Below are positions 8,573 to 38,718 of a stretch of DNA of 45,237 bases, piece by piece. The position numbers and the translations under genes were made by a program. The notes under the pieces are model-generated. The model was not told where the DNA came from. It saw only the letters and a program-made list of their open reading frames with translations, and ran no database searches. The stretch's first letter is position 1. Every line of letters starts with the position of its first letter. Source of the stretch: Tetragenococcus sp. (lineage in GTDB: Bacteria > Bacillota > Bacilli > Lactobacillales > Enterococcaceae). Location: assembly GCA_030462125.1 (NCBI GenBank), contig JAKDZT010000002.1:1-45237 (forward strand), read 5' to 3'.

Positions 8573-9475
8573 ATTTTAAAGTTTCCCAAACAACAATCGA
8601 TCATTTTCATCATCACAACAATTTCTATTCTATTATTAAGCGCATGCAGCGGAGATACATCGAACGAATCCACTGCAGATGATGATACTGAAAGCCTCGA
8701 CGTGGGTCAAATCAGCTGGGAAGAAAATATTGCAGTTACAAATATGTGGAAAAGTATTTTAGAAGAAGAAGGTTATGAAGTCAACTTACACTTATTAGAT
8801 ATTGCAACACAAATGTCTTCACTTGAAAATGATGAACTGGACATCAGTCCTGAAATTTGGTTACCTATTCAAGATGCGGAATATGTAAAACAATATGACG
8901 ACACCGTTAACTTTTCGGAAGAAACTTGGTATGATAACGCAAAAGTTGGATTAGTTGTCCCAAGCTATATGGACCACGTAAATAGCATTGAAGATTTAAA
9001 CGAAAACAAAGAAAGTTTAGATCAGGAAATAACTGGTTTTGATGCAGGAGCAGGAACAATGCTAGTAGTGGAAGATGTGATAGAAGAATACGACTTAGAT
9101 TATGAGCTTACATCAAGTTCTGAAGCAGCCATGCTGACGGAACTAGAGCAAGCAATCGATAATGAAGAGGATATTGTTGTACCGTTATGGAATCCACATC
9201 GTGCGTTTTCTGAAATGGACTTAAAATATTTAGACGACCCTCAAAACCTCTTTGGCGAAGCTGAAAAAATTCACCATGCAACGCGTTCAAATTTTGATGA
9301 AGATTATCCAGAGGTAGATCAATGGATGAAAAATTGGAAAATGGATGATGACCAAATTGGCGAATTAATGAGCTACGTCGGTGAAGCTGAAGATAACGAT
9401 GAAGAACCAATTGAAGGAGCTGAAAAATGGATCAACGAAAATCAAGAAGTTGTTGATCAATGGTTGGAAAAATAA
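8573..9475 (+). CDS. Glycine betaine/choline-type ABC substrate-binding lipoprotein (OpuAC/ProX-like); ORF-track entry 8702 is truncated
   Basis: Frame extends upstream through K-F-P-K-QQSIIFIITTISILLLSAC|S lipobox; AGGAG at 8561-8565; only ATT codons at start distance; mature part IGQ-like SWEENIAV...EIWLP typical of the family. Confidence 0.8.
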   Translation: MLKFPKQQSIIFIITTISILLLSACSGDTSNESTADDDTESLDVGQISWEENIAVTNMWKSILEEEGYEVNLHLLDIATQMSSLENDELDISPEIWLPIQDAEYVKQYDDTVNFSEETWYDNAKVGLVVPSYMDHVNSIEDLNENKESLDQEITGFDAGAGTMLVVEDVIEEYDLDYELTSSSEAAMLTELEQAIDNEEDIVVPLWNPHRAFSEMDLKYLDDPQNLFGEAEKIHHATRSNFDEDYPEVDQWMKNWKMDDDQIGELMSYVGEAEDNDEEPIEGAEKWINENQEVVDQWLEK

Positions 9476-9526
9476 CTTCAAACGATTAGGAGGAGATGAT
9501 TAATCTCCGAGTTCTCATCTCGACAA

Positions 9527-9722
9527 AATTGGAGGGACATCAAAAGGTGTCCCTCCAATTTTATTCGTTATCGGTGGTATGTTAGCAGATGTGCCACCAA
9601 TTGTTAAAGTATTGGAGGCACATCAGGAAAGTTACCACCAATCTGTAAATTATTGGCGGTACATCGGAAAAACTAGCACCAATAGGTATAAATATTGGTG
9701 GTAACATTAATGTTGCACCAAT
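9527..9722. repeat. Hairpin array A: 5 tandem imperfect palindromes, period 41-42 bp
   Basis: GG of the ATTGGnGG arm at 9531, 9573, 9614, 9655, 9697; arms ATTGG(A/T/C)GG ... CCACCAAT. Confidence 0.85.
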
Positions 9723-9736
9723 TAACAAGCTCATTT

Positions 9737-11332
9737 TTACAAATCACTTGAATCATTCAAGACGTCAATGGACTCCTTGTATATTTTCTGATCTGCGATA
9801 ACGAGCGCTTCCTCAAAATTCTTTTGTAAGAAATAGCGATCATGAGTAACAGCTAAAAGTGTTCCGGTATACTCACTCAGCAGCTCTTCGATTTCTTCTC
9901 GCGCATAAATATCTAAGTGATTCGTGGGTTCATCTAGAATTAAAAAGTTGATCTCTTTATGGAAAAGCCAAAGCAAATAAAGTCGCACGCCTTCACCGCC
10001 GGAAAGATCTTTCATGCGGCGATGGACATCTTCACTATAAAAGCCAAAATGAGCGAGTGTTTGGCGAGCTTTTTGTTCTTGTGGCGAAATTTCTTTTACA
10101 AAATCCAAAATACGTTGATCCGGTTGAGTAAAGGTAATGGTTTGGGGTAAATAACCAACCTTGATACTCGAACCCAGAGTCAGTGTCCCTTCATCAGGAG
10201 ATAATTCCCCTAAAATCAGTCGCAACAAAGTCGACTTGCCAGATCCATTTTTTCCTAAAATAGCTACTCTTTCGTGTCGATAAATAGTAAAAGTACTCTC
10301 TGTAAATAATAACTGCTCGCCCATCATTTTACCTATCCCTTGGGCCGTCACCACTTCTTTACCAGAACGGGAAGCCTGATCAATTCCTGCTAAGCGCTTT
10401 TTAGGAGGTTGAGGTGGTTTGACAACCGTTATTTTGGATAAACGTCGTTCTAATTCCTTCGCTTTTTTGAAAAAGGCTTCATCGCCGCCTTCATTTCCCC
10501 ACTGTCGATAACGGCGAATCATTCGTTTGATGCGTTGGATTTCTTTTTGCTGGAGTTCGTAATTTTTCTTGATTTCTGCCATACGCGCTTCTTTTAGCTG
10601 CACGTAACGACTATAATTTCCCGGATATTCAATAATAGAGCCATCTTCAATTTCAACAATTTTTTCTGTCACTTGATCTAAAAACATGCGATCATGGGAA
10701 ATGACCAAATAAGCTGTTTTCGTAGATTTTAAATAATTTTCTAACCACTGAATCCCCGCTAAATCTAAATGATTTGTCGGTTCATCTAACAACAAAAGAT
10801 CGGCCTCTTGTAAAAGAACCTTGGCTAATTCCACTCGAACCCGTTCACCACCGCTGATATCAGTCATTGCCGTGTGAATTTTCTCTCCCAAGCCTAAACC
10901 TTTCAACGTGCTTATGATTCGATCTTCCAGTTCATACCCACCAGCATCTTCAAATTCTTGCTGCAGCTTTCCGTAAACATCCATAACGTGAGCTAAATCT
11001 GCAGCTGGATCCGTCATTTTCTCTTCATAAGCACGTAATTGATGTTGTAAATTTTGTAGGTTAGAAAAACTTTGGTGCAAATAATCAACAATGGATAAAT
11101 GACTTACTGTAAACCTTTGGGATACATAGCCAATTCGCAAACCTTTTTGACGACTCACAACCCCATCATCAGCGCCTTCTGTTCCTGTCATCATTTGGAA
11201 AAGCGTCGTTTTTCCTGTGCCATTTGCGCCAACAAGTCCGATCTTTTCTTGTTCATTTATAGTTAGTGATAATTTTTCAAAAAGTGGCGTGCCACTAAAG
11301 CTTTTATTGATGTCATTTAATTGTATAAGCAT
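9737..11332 (-). CDS. ABC-F family ATPase (ribosome-associated, possibly antibiotic-resistance type)
   Basis: Two ABC domains (GANGTGKTT, GKNGSGKST; LLLLDEPTNHLD, FLILDEPTNHLD) with basic linker, no TM domain. Confidence 0.9.
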   Translation of the reverse strand: MLIQLNDINKSFSGTPLFEKLSLTINEQEKIGLVGANGTGKTTLFQMMTGTEGADDGVVSRQKGLRIGYVSQRFTVSHLSIVDYLHQSFSNLQNLQHQLRAYEEKMTDPAADLAHVMDVYGKLQQEFEDAGGYELEDRIISTLKGLGLGEKIHTAMTDISGGERVRVELAKVLLQEADLLLLDEPTNHLDLAGIQWLENYLKSTKTAYLVISHDRMFLDQVTEKIVEIEDGSIIEYPGNYSRYVQLKEARMAEIKKNYELQQKEIQRIKRMIRRYRQWGNEGGDEAFFKKAKELERRLSKITVVKPPQPPKKRLAGIDQASRSGKEVVTAQGIGKMMGEQLLFTESTFTIYRHERVAILGKNGSGKSTLLRLILGELSPDEGTLTLGSSIKVGYLPQTITFTQPDQRILDFVKEISPQEQKARQTLAHFGFYSEDVHRRMKDLSGGEGVRLYLLWLFHKEINFLILDEPTNHLDIYAREEIEELLSEYTGTLLAVTHDRYFLQKNFEEALVIADQKIYKESIDVLNDSSDL

Positions 11333-11370
11333 GGTCTTCTCCTTTTAAGACCATCCGTATTTTGGCAATA

Positions 11371-11400
11371 AAAAAGTCATGGAATCATCCATGACTTTTT
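11371..11400 (-). terminator. Hairpin terminator immediately upstream of the ABC-F gene (attenuator candidate)
   Basis: AAAAAGTCATGG-ATGATT-CCATGACTTTTT, 38 bp before the ABC-F start codon. Confidence 0.75.
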
Positions 11401-11441
11401 TATTTATCTTCTGTTGAAAAAAGTAGAAACATACGAAATGG

Positions 11442-11579
11442 TCATTGGTTTTGTAAATATATACTGTTTTTGGATATACTTCTCCCGCTAACAGCCATTG
11501 TAAAACCAATCGCATGACTAAAACTGGTATAATCCCGTTGATAATTTTCACTTGGTGTTATTTTAATCATACGAACCAT
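11442..11579 (-). CDS. 45-aa upstream ORF, candidate leader peptide MVRMIKITPSENYQRDYTSFSHAIGFTMAVSGRSISKNSIYLQNQ
   Basis: AAGGAGGG upstream of ATG, located between promoter and attenuator hairpin. Confidence 0.5.
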   Translation of the reverse strand: MVRMIKITPSENYQRDYTSFSHAIGFTMAVSGRSISKNSIYLQNQ

Positions 11580-11616
11580 TTGCTATGTTCCCTCCTTTTC
11601 TTATTTATTATCTAAA

Positions 11617-11645
11617 AGTATAACGAATTTTTTTTGTTTATACAA
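11617..11645 (-). promoter_or_regulatory. Promoter of the ABC-F leader: TTGTAT-N17-TATACT
   Basis: Hexamers on minus strand (plus ATACAA 11640-11645, AGTATA 11617-11622). Confidence 0.55.
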
Positions 11646-11684
11646 GCTCAATTTTGGTCCATTTAGAATTAGATTAAAAAGAGC

Positions 11685-11936
11685 AAAGATAGGGAATGAA
11701 TCACGATTACACTACCCATGTTTAAAAAGATAGGGACTATATTCGTGAAAGACTCCCTATCTTTAGAGAAAAATAGGTCAATTATAGAAATTCAGGTTAA
11801 AAATGACCAAACTTAGGGAGTGAATTATGATTACAGTCCCCATCTTCCAAAAGATAGGGACTGTTTCTCTGATTTACTCCCTGAAATGCGAAAGACGGGG
11901 ACTGTATTCGTAAAAGACTCCCTATGTTTAGTGAAA
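11685..11936. repeat. Hairpin array B: ~6 tandem imperfect palindromes, period 41-42 bp
   Basis: GGG of AAAGATAGGGACT arm at 11692, 11733, (degenerate ~11775), 11816, 11857, 11898; arms AAAGATAGGGA ... TCCCTATCTTT. Confidence 0.82.
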
Positions 11937-12042
11937 AATTTTTCCATTAAACCCGACAGTATCCATAGGTAACAATCTCTAACATTAGTGTCGTCCAGCT
12001 AATTAAAAAGTCCGTTTTCTTTAATCAACAGCACTTTACTGC

Positions 12043-13269
12043 TTATTTTGTCTCCAAATCGTGTAAGAATAATCCGCTTAAAAGTTTCGGTTCAAACCAG
12101 GTAGATTTAGGCGGCATAATTTCTTTAGCATCTGCTACTTGTAAAAGATCGCGCATTTTCGTAGGATACATGGAAAAAGCGACGGTCCCATTTTGGCTGT
12201 CGACCAGTTCTTCTAATCTTTGCGGTCCATGAATGCCGCCAACGAAATCAATGCGTTTATCGCTCCTCACATCCTGGATATCAAAGATCGGTGCGATCAA
12301 TAAATTTTGTAGCAAGGACACGTCTAGTTTATCTACCGGATCTGTGGGGATTTTCTCTTCTTTTACTTTTAAGTCGTACCAGCTTCCTGCCAGATACATC
12401 ATCATTTCTGCAGAGGCGCTCGGCCTTTTTTCCGTGGTTTCTTCTACAACAAAATTTTCCTGCAATTGTTCAAAAAAATCACTAGGTATTTCCACGTCTA
12501 ATATGCGATTATATTCTTTGATTAATAATTCATCTTCAGGAAATAAAATCGATAAAAAGGAATCACTTTCTGCTCTGTTGGTTTGTTCTTGCCGTTTTTC
12601 TAAGCCAACCTTCACAGCTGACTCTGTCCGATGGTGGCCATCTGCGATATATAAGGCATCCAATGAAGAAAAAGCTTCTTCTAGTTGCTTAATTACTGCT
12701 GTGTCATCAAGCACCCAGACTTTATGATGAACGTTATGGTAACTAGTAAAGTCATAAATAGCCTCGTGAGTGTCCTGCCAGTTTCGAATCAATTGTTGAG
12801 TCGTTTGATTTTCCCGATAGCTAAGAAAAATCGGACTCGTATTTGCATCGCAACTACGAATGTGATTCATCCGATCAATTTCTTTTTCGTGGCGTGTATA
12901 CTCATGCTTTTTGATCTTTCCTTCAGCATAATCATCAATTGAAGTACAAGCAACCAAGCCCGTTTGGCTTCTGCCATCCATGGTTAATTGATACAAATAA
13001 TAATTTTCTTGTCCGTCTTTTTCCAACCAACCTTTTTGCAAAAAGTCAGCCAGATTAGCCGCTGCCTTTTGGTAGACCGCTTCGTCATAAGGCGAAATAC
13101 TCTGCGGTAAGTCAATCTCTGCTTTATCGATATGAAAGTAGCTATAAGGATTATCTTGTGCCAAAGCGCGTGCCTCTGCCGAATCCACCACATCATAAGG
13201 CAGTTCAGCAACTTTATCGGCAAGCGTTGCTTCTGGACGGATCGCTTTAAATGGACGTACAACAACCAT
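12043..13269 (-). CDS. DUF1015 family protein
   Basis: MVVVRPFKAIRP..., LPYDVV, YIADGHHRTESA typical of DUF1015; adjacent to serA. Confidence 0.88.
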   Translation of the reverse strand: MVVVRPFKAIRPEATLADKVAELPYDVVDSAEARALAQDNPYSYFHIDKAEIDLPQSISPYDEAVYQKAAANLADFLQKGWLEKDGQENYYLYQLTMDGRSQTGLVACTSIDDYAEGKIKKHEYTRHEKEIDRMNHIRSCDANTSPIFLSYRENQTTQQLIRNWQDTHEAIYDFTSYHNVHHKVWVLDDTAVIKQLEEAFSSLDALYIADGHHRTESAVKVGLEKRQEQTNRAESDSFLSILFPEDELLIKEYNRILDVEIPSDFFEQLQENFVVEETTEKRPSASAEMMMYLAGSWYDLKVKEEKIPTDPVDKLDVSLLQNLLIAPIFDIQDVRSDKRIDFVGGIHGPQRLEELVDSQNGTVAFSMYPTKMRDLLQVADAKEIMPPKSTWFEPKLLSGLFLHDLETK

Positions 13270-13271
13270 GT

Positions 13272-14456
13272 TTAATATGGCACCTCCTCTTTTTTAATCA
13301 CACGGACGCGAATGATGTCATCTGTTGCTCTTAATTTTTCCACTACATCCGCAATTTTTCTTTCATCATTTTCATCAATATCAACTAAAGTATAGGCGTA
13401 ATCGTCGCGCCCGCGATTAATCATATTATCAATATTAATCTCAGAATCCGCAATCACTGCCGAAATTTGCCCTAGCATATTTGGGACATTGCGATTAATG
13501 ATTGTAATACGATATGGCGAGTGAAAAGCCATTTCAACGGGTGGGAAATTCACTGAACGTTTGATTACGCCGGTTTCAATAAATTTCTTTAAGGTACGTA
13601 CAGCAATTTTTGCACTGTTCGTCTCTGCTTCTGCAGTGGATGCACCTAAATGGGGCAATACAGTAATATGATCATGATGTAATAACTTCTCGTCAGCAAA
13701 ATCAGTGGTAAAACCAGCTAATTCGTCCGCTTCGATCGCTTCAATTACCGCAGAATTATCGACAATCTCAGAACGAGCAAAGTTAAACAACTGAGCGGAA
13801 TTTTTCATCATAGCAATTTCTTTTTGACCAATTAAATGAAATGTTTTTTCTTGCAGTGGAACGTGTACCGTAATAAAGTCACAGCTAGTAAAAATTTCAC
13901 TGATTTCTTTCGCACGATGAACACGTCGCGAAATACTCCATGCTGTATCCACTGAAACATAAGGGTCGTATCCCATGACTTCCATGCCTAATCGATAAGC
14001 GTCATTAGCCACCATCGCGCCAATCGAACCTAGCCCAATGACCCCTAATTTTTTTCCTTCTAATTCACGGCCCGCAAATTGTTTTTTATGCGCTTCTGCT
14101 TGTTCTTCTACGTCAGAACCCGTGACTTGTTGCAGCCAGTTAATCCCTCTAATCACCGGTCGAACACTGAGTAACAAACTCATCAAAACTAATTCTTTTA
14201 CGGCGTTAGCGTTCGCTCCGGGTGTGTTAAAAACCACAATCCCTTTTTCCGTGCATAAATCAACAGGAATATTATTCACTCCTGTGCCCGCACGTGCTAC
14301 ACCTAGAACAGAATCAGGCAGTTCAGATTCTTGCAGCTTTTTACTACGTAAGATAATTCCTTCCGGTTGTTCGCTTTCGTTAATCGCATACTTTTCTTTT
14401 TCTAAACGTGCCATACCTTCAGGGGCAATGGCGTTAAATGTCTTAATTTGATGCAT
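13272..14456 (-). CDS. serA: D-3-phosphoglycerate dehydrogenase with C-terminal ACT domain
   Basis: GVIGLGSIGAMVAN NAD-binding motif, LPHLGASTAEAE, ACT-like C-terminus; start at ATG 14456 after GGAGGA. Confidence 0.93.
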   Translation of the reverse strand: MHQIKTFNAIAPEGMARLEKEKYAINESEQPEGIILRSKKLQESELPDSVLGVARAGTGVNNIPVDLCTEKGIVVFNTPGANANAVKELVLMSLLLSVRPVIRGINWLQQVTGSDVEEQAEAHKKQFAGRELEGKKLGVIGLGSIGAMVANDAYRLGMEVMGYDPYVSVDTAWSISRRVHRAKEISEIFTSCDFITVHVPLQEKTFHLIGQKEIAMMKNSAQLFNFARSEIVDNSAVIEAIEADELAGFTTDFADEKLLHHDHITVLPHLGASTAEAETNSAKIAVRTLKKFIETGVIKRSVNFPPVEMAFHSPYRITIINRNVPNMLGQISAVIADSEINIDNMINRGRDDYAYTLVDIDENDERKIADVVEKLRATDDIIRVRVIKKEEVPY

Positions 14457-14457
14457 T

Positions 14458-15546
14458 TTATTCTCCTCCATGTGCTTTTTCAAATTTTTCCATAAAATCA
14501 ACCAATGCTTGTACGCCTTCAAGCGGGAAAGCGTTGTAGAGACTGGCTCTCATGCCACCCACAGAGCGATGGCCTTTTAAATTTTCAAAGCCTTGTTCTT
14601 GCGCTAACTGGATGAATTTTTGATTTAATGTGTCACTATTCGTTAAAAAGGGAATATTGGTTAGCGAACGATCATTTTTGTTTACTGGACTTTGGAACAA
14701 AGCAGAACGATCGATTGCATCATACAATAGCCCCGCTTTTTGCTGATTGTATTTTAAAATTTGCGGTATGCCGCCTAAATCCTGCAGCCATTCAAAAACC
14801 AGTTTGGCCATATAAATGCTGAAAGTGGGCGGTGTATTGTACATTGAGTGTTTATCTGCTTGCAGACGGTAATCCAACATTGGTGCCAAAAGTGGTTGTT
14901 CATTTAATAAATCATCGCTTATGATGACGACTGTCAGACCTGCTGGACCCATATTTTTTTGAGCACCTGCATAAATCACGCCAAAATCTGTCACTTTATA
15001 TTCATTTGTCAAAATATTTGAGGACATATCAGCTACTAGCGGGATATCTCCTGTATCAGGAATTTTTTGATAGCTAATACCATCAATCGTTTCATTGGTT
15101 GTTATATGAAGATAAGCAGCATTTTCATCCAACATATCTTTTGTTATTTGTGGGACATAAGCAAAATTTTTATCCTCACTCGAGGCAATGACTTGCGTAT
15201 CAACTACTGTATCAATAGCTTTAGCTGCGGCAATCGCTTTTTGAGACCATGAACCTGTATTAGCATAGAGAGCCTTTTTATTTTGTGCTAAATTTAGGGG
15301 TAGCGCAGAAAATTGCAAGCTAGCGCCGCCTTGTAAGAATAAAACATGATAGTTCTCAGGGATATGCATCAATTCCCGTAATAATTTTTCGGCATCAGCT
15401 ATAATCTCTTCAAACAAGGAGGAGCGATGACTCAATTCCATTACAGACATACCGCTGCCTTTGTAGTCTAAAAATTCTTCTTGCGCCTTTTTTAATACTG
15501 GTTCTGGCAAAACTGCTGGACCAGCTGAAAAATTATAAATCGTCAT
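14458..15546 (-). CDS. serC: Phosphoserine aminotransferase
   Basis: [34 protein letters not shown]. Confidence 0.96.
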
Positions 15547-15689
15547 ATGCTTCCACTCCTTTGATTTGTTAGAAATTATTGGCAAGATATTTGATTCATT
15601 ATAGCAGACTCCTTAGAGTTTAAAAAGAAATTGTTGGGATGATTCTGAAAAATCCAACAGTTTTCATTTTAGCTATTTAGGTGCTAGCT

Positions 15690-15795
15690 TTTTTTAAACG
15701 ACCTACACGAGCGTTATTAATAATGGTTATAAAAAATTGGAAAAAGATGGTTCCTTTGTTTCAGATAAAAGGGGAGCCCGTACCAATTTATAGTT
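15690..15795 (+). pseudogene. Possible remnant of a GntR-type HTH regulator
   Basis: Frame reads TTYTSVINNGYKKLEKDGSFVSDKRGARTNL*, resembling the end of a GntR wHTH; no intact ORF. Confidence 0.3.
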
Positions 15796-15814
15796 TGATA
15801 ATAGAACAGAGCGA

Positions 15815-15850
15815 AAATAACGAAGACGAGGAACGATAAATTCGCCCCTC
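15815..15850 (+). terminator. Intrinsic terminator
   Basis: AGACGAGG ... CCTCGTCTTTTTTT. Confidence 0.7.
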
Positions 15851-15942
15851 GTCTTTTTTTGCAAAAACATAGCACTTGAAAGTATAGATAACAATTTTCT
15901 AGTTTAAAAGATTATTGCGACAAGCAATAAAAGCAATATTCA

Positions 15943-16090
15943 TTACTCAATATCCATTTATTGAGTAAAACTTTGCGCTTTCTTTCCTCACTATCTTGTT
16001 ATTGAGTAAGACTTTCTTATCTCTTTCCTCATTTTTTAATTATTGAAGAACCAATCATCATTTCGTTCCTCAACTTTCCAATCATCACGA
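15943..16090. repeat. Hairpin array C: 3 complete + 1 partial tandem palindromes, exact 41-bp period
   Basis: TT(A/C)CTCA at 15943, 15984, 16025, 16066; matching arm ATTGA(G/A)(T/G)AA at 15960, 16001, 16042. Confidence 0.85.
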
Positions 16091-16114
16091 TCCTAATGCC
16101 GTCGCCTCTATTTA

Positions 16115-16990
16115 TTAATTCGCATGCCAGTCGGCTTGTCTTGCTAAAGCTAAGCAACCAAAAGTCCCCGTGTCATCTTCTAAAGAAGGTGTCACAATAT
16201 AGTTTTCTAATTTTGGTGTTTCAACATAGTTATTTAGCAACTCTGCAAAAGCTCGGTGAACTTTTTTTAGCATATGACGCTGCTTCATTACGCCACCGCC
16301 AAAGATAATAACATCTGGTGAAAACAACAATGTCGTATTATACGCACATTGAGCGATATAATAAGCTTCGATGTCCCAAATAGGGTCATCCGCTGGGATA
16401 TCTTGTCCCTTTCTTCCTGCTCTATCTTCAATTGCCGGGCCTGCTGCCACCCCTTCTAAACAATTTCCATGAAAAGGACAATTGCCTTTAAAATCATCAT
16501 CCGGATGAGGCACAACTAACATGTGCCCCATTTCAGGGTGGCTAAATCCTTCAATAAAACGATCCCTTTGAATAGCGCCTCCACCGATACCCGTTCCAAC
16601 AGTATAGTAAACAACGCTTGATAATCCTTTGCCTTCTCCAAAAACATATTCACCATAAGCCGCAGCGTTAACGTCAGTGGTCCAAGTAATGGGGATGTCA
16701 AAATCTTTTTTCAAGCTTCCCACAAAATCAAAATTTTGCCAAGCTAATTTGGGCGTAGATGTAATATATCCGTAAGTTTTGGAATCTGGATGGATATCAA
16801 TAGGCCCAAATGAACCGACGCCAATGGCAGCAAGGTCATTTTTATATTGTTTAAAAAAGTCGACCACTTGTTTCATTGTTTCTTCTGGTACAGTTGTGGG
16901 GAAACTGACCCTTTCAGTAATCTCTAATTGTTCATCAGCGATAGCACAAACAAATTTCGTCCCACCAGCTTCAATTGACCCGTATAACAT
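16115..16990 (-). CDS. ROK-family sugar kinase, probable fructokinase
   Basis: GSIEAGGTKFVCAI, DVNAAAYGE, TVGTGIGGGAI, HPEMGHM...CPFHGNCLEG zinc motif. Confidence 0.9.
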   Translation of the reverse strand: MLYGSIEAGGTKFVCAIADEQLEITERVSFPTTVPEETMKQVVDFFKQYKNDLAAIGVGSFGPIDIHPDSKTYGYITSTPKLAWQNFDFVGSLKKDFDIPITWTTDVNAAAYGEYVFGEGKGLSSVVYYTVGTGIGGGAIQRDRFIEGFSHPEMGHMLVVPHPDDDFKGNCPFHGNCLEGVAAGPAIEDRAGRKGQDIPADDPIWDIEAYYIAQCAYNTTLLFSPDVIIFGGGVMKQRHMLKKVHRAFAELLNNYVETPKLENYIVTPSLEDDTGTFGCLALARQADWHAN

Positions 16991-33556: not shown

Positions 33557-33598
33557 AAAAAAGATGAGAAACCAATTCTATGGCAACTCATCTTTTTT
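33557..33598 (+). terminator. Intrinsic terminator
   Basis: AAAAAAGATGAG-N18-CTCATCTTTTTT. Confidence 0.7.
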
Positions 33599-38676: not shown

Positions 38677-38718
38677 AAAACCGTCTGTAAGAATATCAAA
38701 ATTCTCACAGACGGTTTT
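38677..38718 (-). terminator. Intrinsic terminator at end of PTS operon
   Basis: AAAACCGTCTGT ... ACAGACGGTTTT. Confidence 0.75.

Follow-up and report, generated by a model that had tools for sequence, protein, structure and literature searches.

Intergenic arrays of imperfect palindromes in Tetragenococcus share a 41-42 bp period across unrelated sequences

Results

The window is a 45,237-nucleotide stretch of Tetragenococcus sp. DNA (contig JAKDZT010000002.1), and three of its intergenic regions, A, B and C, contain palindromic arrays to which no strand is assigned. Array A (9525..9729) has five 41-bp units with the arms ATTGGnGG.../...CCnCCAAT. It lies between two convergent genes. On one side, the stop codon of an OpuAC-type glycine betaine binding protein (8702..9475, + strand) is 50 bp away; on the other, an ABC-F type ATPase with two ABC_tran domains (9737..11332, - strand) has its 3' end at a distance of 14 bp. 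The original prediction placed A just 3' of a minus-strand gene; the ABC-F 3' end is indeed near, but the gene pair is convergent, with OpuAC on the other side. The first unit of A (9525..9562) is terminator-like, with a 17-bp stem, A4/T4 flanks and a single-strand DNA fold z of -7.9, and it is possible that single array units such as this one were co-opted as terminators. Between the ABC-F gene and array B, a short gene region (11368-11606) gives a weak match to the Listeria sRNA rliI, with 24.7 bits, below the cut-off of 45.

Array B is built from two halves that are separated by a core. The first half (11685..11766) contains two units, AAAGATAGGGACT...AGTCCCTATCTTT, and the second half (11810..11930) contains three. 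The core (about 11767..11809; GGTCAATTATAGAAATTCAGGTTAAAAATGACC) has no relation to the B unit and sets the unit-to-unit distance at 83 bp. The upstream neighbour of this array is a DUF1015 protein (12043..13269, - strand), the last gene of a serC-serA-DUF1015 operon. Array C (15939..16102) has four 41-bp units with the arms TTnCTCAAT/ATTGAGTAA; its upstream neighbour is a ROK family protein (16115..16990, - strand), and an ordinary terminator (15823..15855, - strand) lies downstream of it on the transcript strand. In the closest genome, G004, the ortholog of array C has one extra unit (41 bp) and, in addition, a 73-bp insertion.

All three blocks were found at the positions predicted from the sequence alone. 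Array B is non-uniform, with its units interrupted by the core. The shared period of 41-42 bp was confirmed by autocorrelation, which has its maximum at lag 41 in each array (0.435 in A, 0.41 in B and 0.57 in C). With relaxed parameters the TRF scores are 187, 146 and 140, respectively, compared with a top score of 121 when 68.6 kb of intergenic DNA of like type was dinucleotide-shuffled 20 times. Each array is also palindromic beyond a column-permuted null that keeps the period (p=0.005 apiece).

The analysis was extended to nine Tetragenococcus genomes. The window's DUF1015 protein is 97% identical to that of G004, a single 2.72 Mb chromosome, and 81-85% identical to the proteins of T. muriaticus, T. 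halophilus and T. solitarius. The window's own assembly comprises 398 contigs and is 88% complete, so the genus-level work was done mostly on G004, G001, G006 and G007. We scanned the window together with 800 kb of G004, 140 kb of G001, 260 kb of G006 and 233 kb of G007 (about 1.4 Mb from the four other genomes) by TRF for any period from 15 to 200, and defined a strong intergenic array by a TRF score of 125 or more and a location outside ORFs of 100 aa or more. Among the 44 strong intergenic arrays the strongest short lag is 41 or 42 in 36, which supports the core claim of the original prediction, a fixed period with free sequence, across the genus. The prediction had named tandem palindromes of widely different periods as its refutation, and the scan for them did not refute it. 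Those with other lags include a duplication that overlaps a T-box leader, a probable CRISPR array, repeats of 31 and 93 bp, and AT-rich stretches. Within the 36 arrays, matching 24-base stretches are separated by lags of 40 (4 cases), 41 (334), 42 (59) and 81-84 (164), and by no others. Coding repeats were rejected as an explanation, as 41 is not a multiple of 3 and the arrays are located outside such ORFs. The same scan found no array of period 41/42 in 782 kb of other Enterococcaceae (440 kb from E. faecalis and 342 kb from 17 or 18 others), where two arrays were returned, both without period 41. Periods other than 41 in the control scan include CRISPR-like arrays of about three times 66 bp in E. 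faecalis and twice 67 bp in G007. Palindromic arrays at three or five helical turns were not seen, so that the length itself is held and not the phase alone.

At 61% circular identity, above a null maximum of 56%, the consensus units form about 11 clusters, most of which have no recognisable similarity to each other. Some of them hold in-register subfamilies with altered stems (TTACTCA/TGAGTAA, TTATCCG/CGGATAA and TTATCCA/TGAATAA). Arm and loop sizes differ between families; only the spread of this measurement is used, as it is wrong for the 42-bp families. The units occur mainly in arrays and not as singletons. Neighbouring units differ by 31%, that is by 12.7 substitutions per step, while only 15 of 135 unit steps (0.11 per step) depart from the period of their array. 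Noncoding DNA aligned between the window's genome and G004 has 83 gap openings per 649 substitutions (0.128 per substitution), from which 1.6 length changes per step are expected. The unit spacing is strongly constrained, with a deficit of about 14-fold, part of which is ascertainment, since regularity is how arrays get recognised; other regular periods were equally findable, yet they are hardly seen. Unrelated sequences that share a length and in which indels are suppressed about 14-fold indicate that the spacing itself is selected or generated.

In about a dozen arrays, drawn from several unrelated families, the units are interrupted midway by a divergent core, most commonly as three units, core and three units over ~260-300 bp. 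Across the core, the units are 72-74 bp apart in D-type arrays and in some arrays of SF1, the largest superfamily, which includes array C; the distance is 83 bp in the B, E and K types and in further SF1 arrays. No core is seen in families A and F or in the 42-bp families. At 10.4 bp per turn, 41, 42, 73 and 83 bp correspond to 3.94, 4.04, 7.02 and 7.98 turns, each near a whole number, and the core distances support the suggestion that one unit spans about four helical turns. The 83-bp class may simply contain a degenerate 42-bp unit, which would make the 73-bp class the main evidence for phasing beyond the 41-bp lattice. The cores, including those of B and SF1, have a common 16-mer pattern that scores 226 against at most 204 in shuffles, and common ancestry within SF1 accounts for part of this; in B the motif is found within 11767..11809.

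Dyad symmetry was examined at the level of whole arrays, where 27 of 38 are more palindromic than a null with permuted columns and unchanged period; the same test on TRF consensus units alone (15/37) was too weak and was not used. In SF1 the highest mutual information of all column pairs belongs to a stem pair, 8-27, with C-G (83) and T-A (48) as the main states and T-G (12) and C-A (11) as intermediates. When a stem base deviates, the partner within the same hairpin is complementary to it in 25% of cases (182/723, array-controlled), compared with 17% across an alternative axis (126/743), 19% one unit away (112/581) and 7-15% further away. On the transcript strand, stem mismatches are G-U in 38 and A-C in 33 cases (p=0.64, a comparison of limited power). 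Selection for an RNA hairpin on this strand is not supported by such equal numbers. Rfam 15 covariance models gave no match above the gathering score in the arrays.

Most arrays are near gene 3' ends. Where both neighbours are known, 13 of 31 arrays are between convergent genes, 14 between tandem and 4 between divergent genes, against a background of 108, 370 and 140, respectively, in 618 intergenic regions. In the C site of the window, and likewise in the A site of G001-G003, the stop codon is followed first by the array and then by an ordinary terminator, which in G005 and G006 stands directly after the gene. Orthologs that are free of the array keep the terminator only; in G005 and G006, both without array C, a terminator matching 15823..15855 directly follows the ROK gene. 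The earlier idea that the arrays arose by expansion of a terminator therefore fits poorly: since the array often sits between the stop codon and an ordinary terminator, and arrays and separate terminators coexist, the terminator is not the source of the array and an expanded Rho-independent terminator was rejected. The single terminators at 33557-33598 and 38677-38718, which had been offered in support, are ordinary hairpins with no bearing on the arrays.

Family A was found in 8 of the 9 Tetragenococcus genomes and C-type arrays in 7 of 9. Family E occurs at many sites in G005 and G006; the window's own genome has two weak matches to it, and the other six genomes have none. No match to A, C or E was obtained outside the genus among 96 genomes of other Enterococcaceae (for A, 0/96). 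The 18 arrays in 800 kb of G004 suggest, by extrapolation of their density, about 60 arrays per genome. Copy number changes mostly by whole units: array indels between the window's genome and G004 are 41, 73 and 167 bp long, of which 167 is about four units and 73 is a core-type step. Some sites are filled with an array in one species and empty in another, and locus L158 of G006 has six 42-bp units, against apparently one degenerate unit in its G004 ortholog. Different families can also occupy one site, such as B, K and E at the 3' side of DUF1015, A or a 42-bp array (in G007) at the 3' side of ABC-F, and the pair of G006 L163 and L009 of the window's own genome. This is suggestive of same-site family replacement, at a frequency not beyond chance given the number of occupied sites.

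Discussion

One of the questions that is raised by these arrays is whether they belong to a known repeat system. STAR elements of Staphylococcus are tandem intergenic units of ~50 nt, with spacers of 40-44 bp that vary by locus (PMC3532100). As with STAR, the arrays described here are intergenic in a Firmicute genus, expand and contract in place and differ in abundance among species (PMC3532100). Unlike STAR, in which each unit has a fixed 14-bp GC-rich motif, the Tetragenococcus families have no common motif and their units are dyads at a 41-42 bp period; the STAR motif T(G/A/T)TGTTG(G/T)GGCCC(C/A) is in none of the 37 consensus units, as read by eye from the list. REP, BIME and REPIN elements are short extragenic imperfect palindromes that occur in clusters, with subfamilies that have alternative complementary stem residues (PMC3733652), and the Tetragenococcus units are likewise clustered imperfect palindromes with complementary stem variants. 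They differ from this group in having one period over unrelated families, tandem arrays instead of singletons or dimers, no RAYT and no consistent GTAG/CGTC foot. The RAYT domain (Y1_Tnp, PF01797) has no match in G007, which carries 41/42-bp arrays, or in G008, which carries family A. The PF01797 copy of the window's own genome has an in-frame TGA, and the others resemble proteins of IS200 size (131-156 aa). GTAG occurs in 8 and CGTC in 2 of the 37 consensus units, counted anywhere in the unit. Membership in REP/BIME with a RAYT was rejected on the missing cognate RAYT and hairpin foot.

EFAR elements are reportedly modular, non-tandem palindromic intergenic elements of Enterococcus faecalis (attributed to Venditti, 2007). 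They would resemble the present arrays in being palindromic, intergenic and from the same bacterial family. EFAR of E. faecalis is also named in a paper on palindromic repeats (PMC3733652). In G009 (400 kb and two 20-kb pieces), which was taken as E. faecalis on an exact match to a ddl primer, we found a dispersed repeat, GAGCGTGGGACAAAAATCACTTTGGATTTTTGCTCCACGCTC..., which we infer to be EFAR. The same 400 kb and two 20-kb pieces contain no 41-bp arrays, G009 has no match to family A, C or E, and since the E. faecalis repeat is not a 41-bp tandem array, membership in EFAR was rejected as well. A CRISPR array does not fit either, as the repetition extends over the entire unit and so also over the stretches between the arms, where a CRISPR would have unique spacers. 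In geometry alone, the arrays are comparable to sopC/parS of the F plasmid, where tandem 43-bp repeats, each with an inverted repeat, are bound by a dimeric protein (PMC9178275); both are tandem dyad repeats of about four helical turns. Yet sopC is a single site of one sequence, borne on a plasmid with ParAB genes, whereas the arrays of Tetragenococcus are chromosomal, number an estimated ~60 per genome and belong to many sequence families. What fits best is a new, genus-specific class of dispersed arrays between genes, with a STAR/BIME-like habit and set by helical spacing and not by sequence.

The reading that we favour, with a probability of about 45%, is that these are genus-specific REP/STAR-like arrays whose helically phased units form a putative platform at the DNA level. 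Each array is a series of imperfect dyads on a fixed lattice of 41-42 bp, about four turns of B-DNA, and the divergent central core that many arrays have keeps the helical phase. The unit sequence drifts and lineage-specific families take over while the spacing is held, and slippage or unequal exchange of whole units would give local gain and loss of copies. Regularly phased to one face of the helix, the dyads may then offer a platform for a structure-specific or cooperative DNA-binding factor, candidates being of the nucleoid, topological or partition type. We infer action on DNA from the phased core distances together with the lack of an RNA bias. Against this reading, the dissimilar families could share one factor only if it recognised shape or spacing; otherwise several paralogous factors would be required. 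The possible degenerate unit in the 83-bp class, the lack of palindromic arrays at three or five turns, the varying arm and loop sizes and the ascertainment in the indel deficit also count against it. A bolder version, in which ~60 or more platforms per chromosome are a sequence-free, phase-coded element of core-centred form with the helical-turn spacing as the conserved signal, seems to us speculative and rather unlikely; such an element would be read by a putative structure-specific protein or by DNA topology itself, and we hold this part with the same doubt.

Bacterial intergenic repeats are usually defined by their sequence, and here unrelated sequences agree in length within a base. Such repeats would be a class that sequence-similarity searches have missed as one class. 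The question of what intergenic palindromes do also becomes directly testable, by changing the spacing by half or whole turns.

The main rival to the platform is common descent with slippage of whole units. An ancestral 41-bp unit, selfish in the manner of REP/BIME or MITE elements, may have been spread by a mobiliser and then diverged, so that the period would be inherited and without present function. The dispersal of families over many sites per genome, the lineage amplification of family E in G005 and G006 and the sites that are occupied in one species and vacant in another favour such a history, and the in-register skeleton with covarying stems in several families and the weak core motif both hint at common descent. 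Yet neutral descent expects about 1.6 indels per unit step where 0.11 are seen, the units are mostly in arrays and not singletons, and no cognate RAYT is present; as a full account we consider it on the unlikely side. Both explanations may be true together, since descent and slippage explain the source of the copies and not the lack of indels, and are in this way compatible with a platform.

Another explanation, which had been raised in the original prediction, is a ladder of RNA hairpins in the 3'-UTR that stabilises or processes transcripts. The covarying stems and the location of most arrays near a gene 3' end, several of them between stop codon and terminator, would suit it. It is disfavoured by the equal G-U and A-C mismatches, by two core-distance classes that are one DNA helical turn apart, which an RNA would not need, and by the arrays being without an Rfam match, and we regard it as improbable. 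Nearly as improbable, or slightly more so, is a mechanistic ruler, in which some enzyme or replication process (for instance rolling-circle or hairpin-primed synthesis) copies a fixed 41-42 nt and expands any hairpin seed alike. It would explain one period from unrelated seeds and the difference between G006 and G004 at L158, but on its own leaves the later lack of indels and the phased cores unexplained. Coincidence or a detection artefact, which only the small starting sample of three could favour, is refuted by the period-free scan with its shuffle null and outgroups, where the controls did return periods other than 41.

Some other repeats were noticed during the scans. In G004, a tandem duplication of 106-bp period (L098:1213-1437) lies over a T-box leader, which Rfam matches at 1370-1602 on the minus strand, and a 31-bp tandem repeat unrelated to the 41-bp class occurs at L205:2280-2364, with the unit TGCGACGAGTAACCGCAGGAGCAGTAATTTG, and at L101:1718-1781, with a similar unit on the opposite strand. 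An apparent CRISPR array with ATTTCAATCCACGCTCCC repeats is located in G007 (L220:10272-10626). A candidate array of Enterococcus alcedinis near the DUF1015 locus (L047:3088-3357) was set aside, as it consists of two copies of a complex inverted repeat of 121-123 bp without a 41-bp signal. Two of the longest arrays, both in G001 (L155:3033-3387 and L150:5785-6005), are shortly downstream of tRNA genes.
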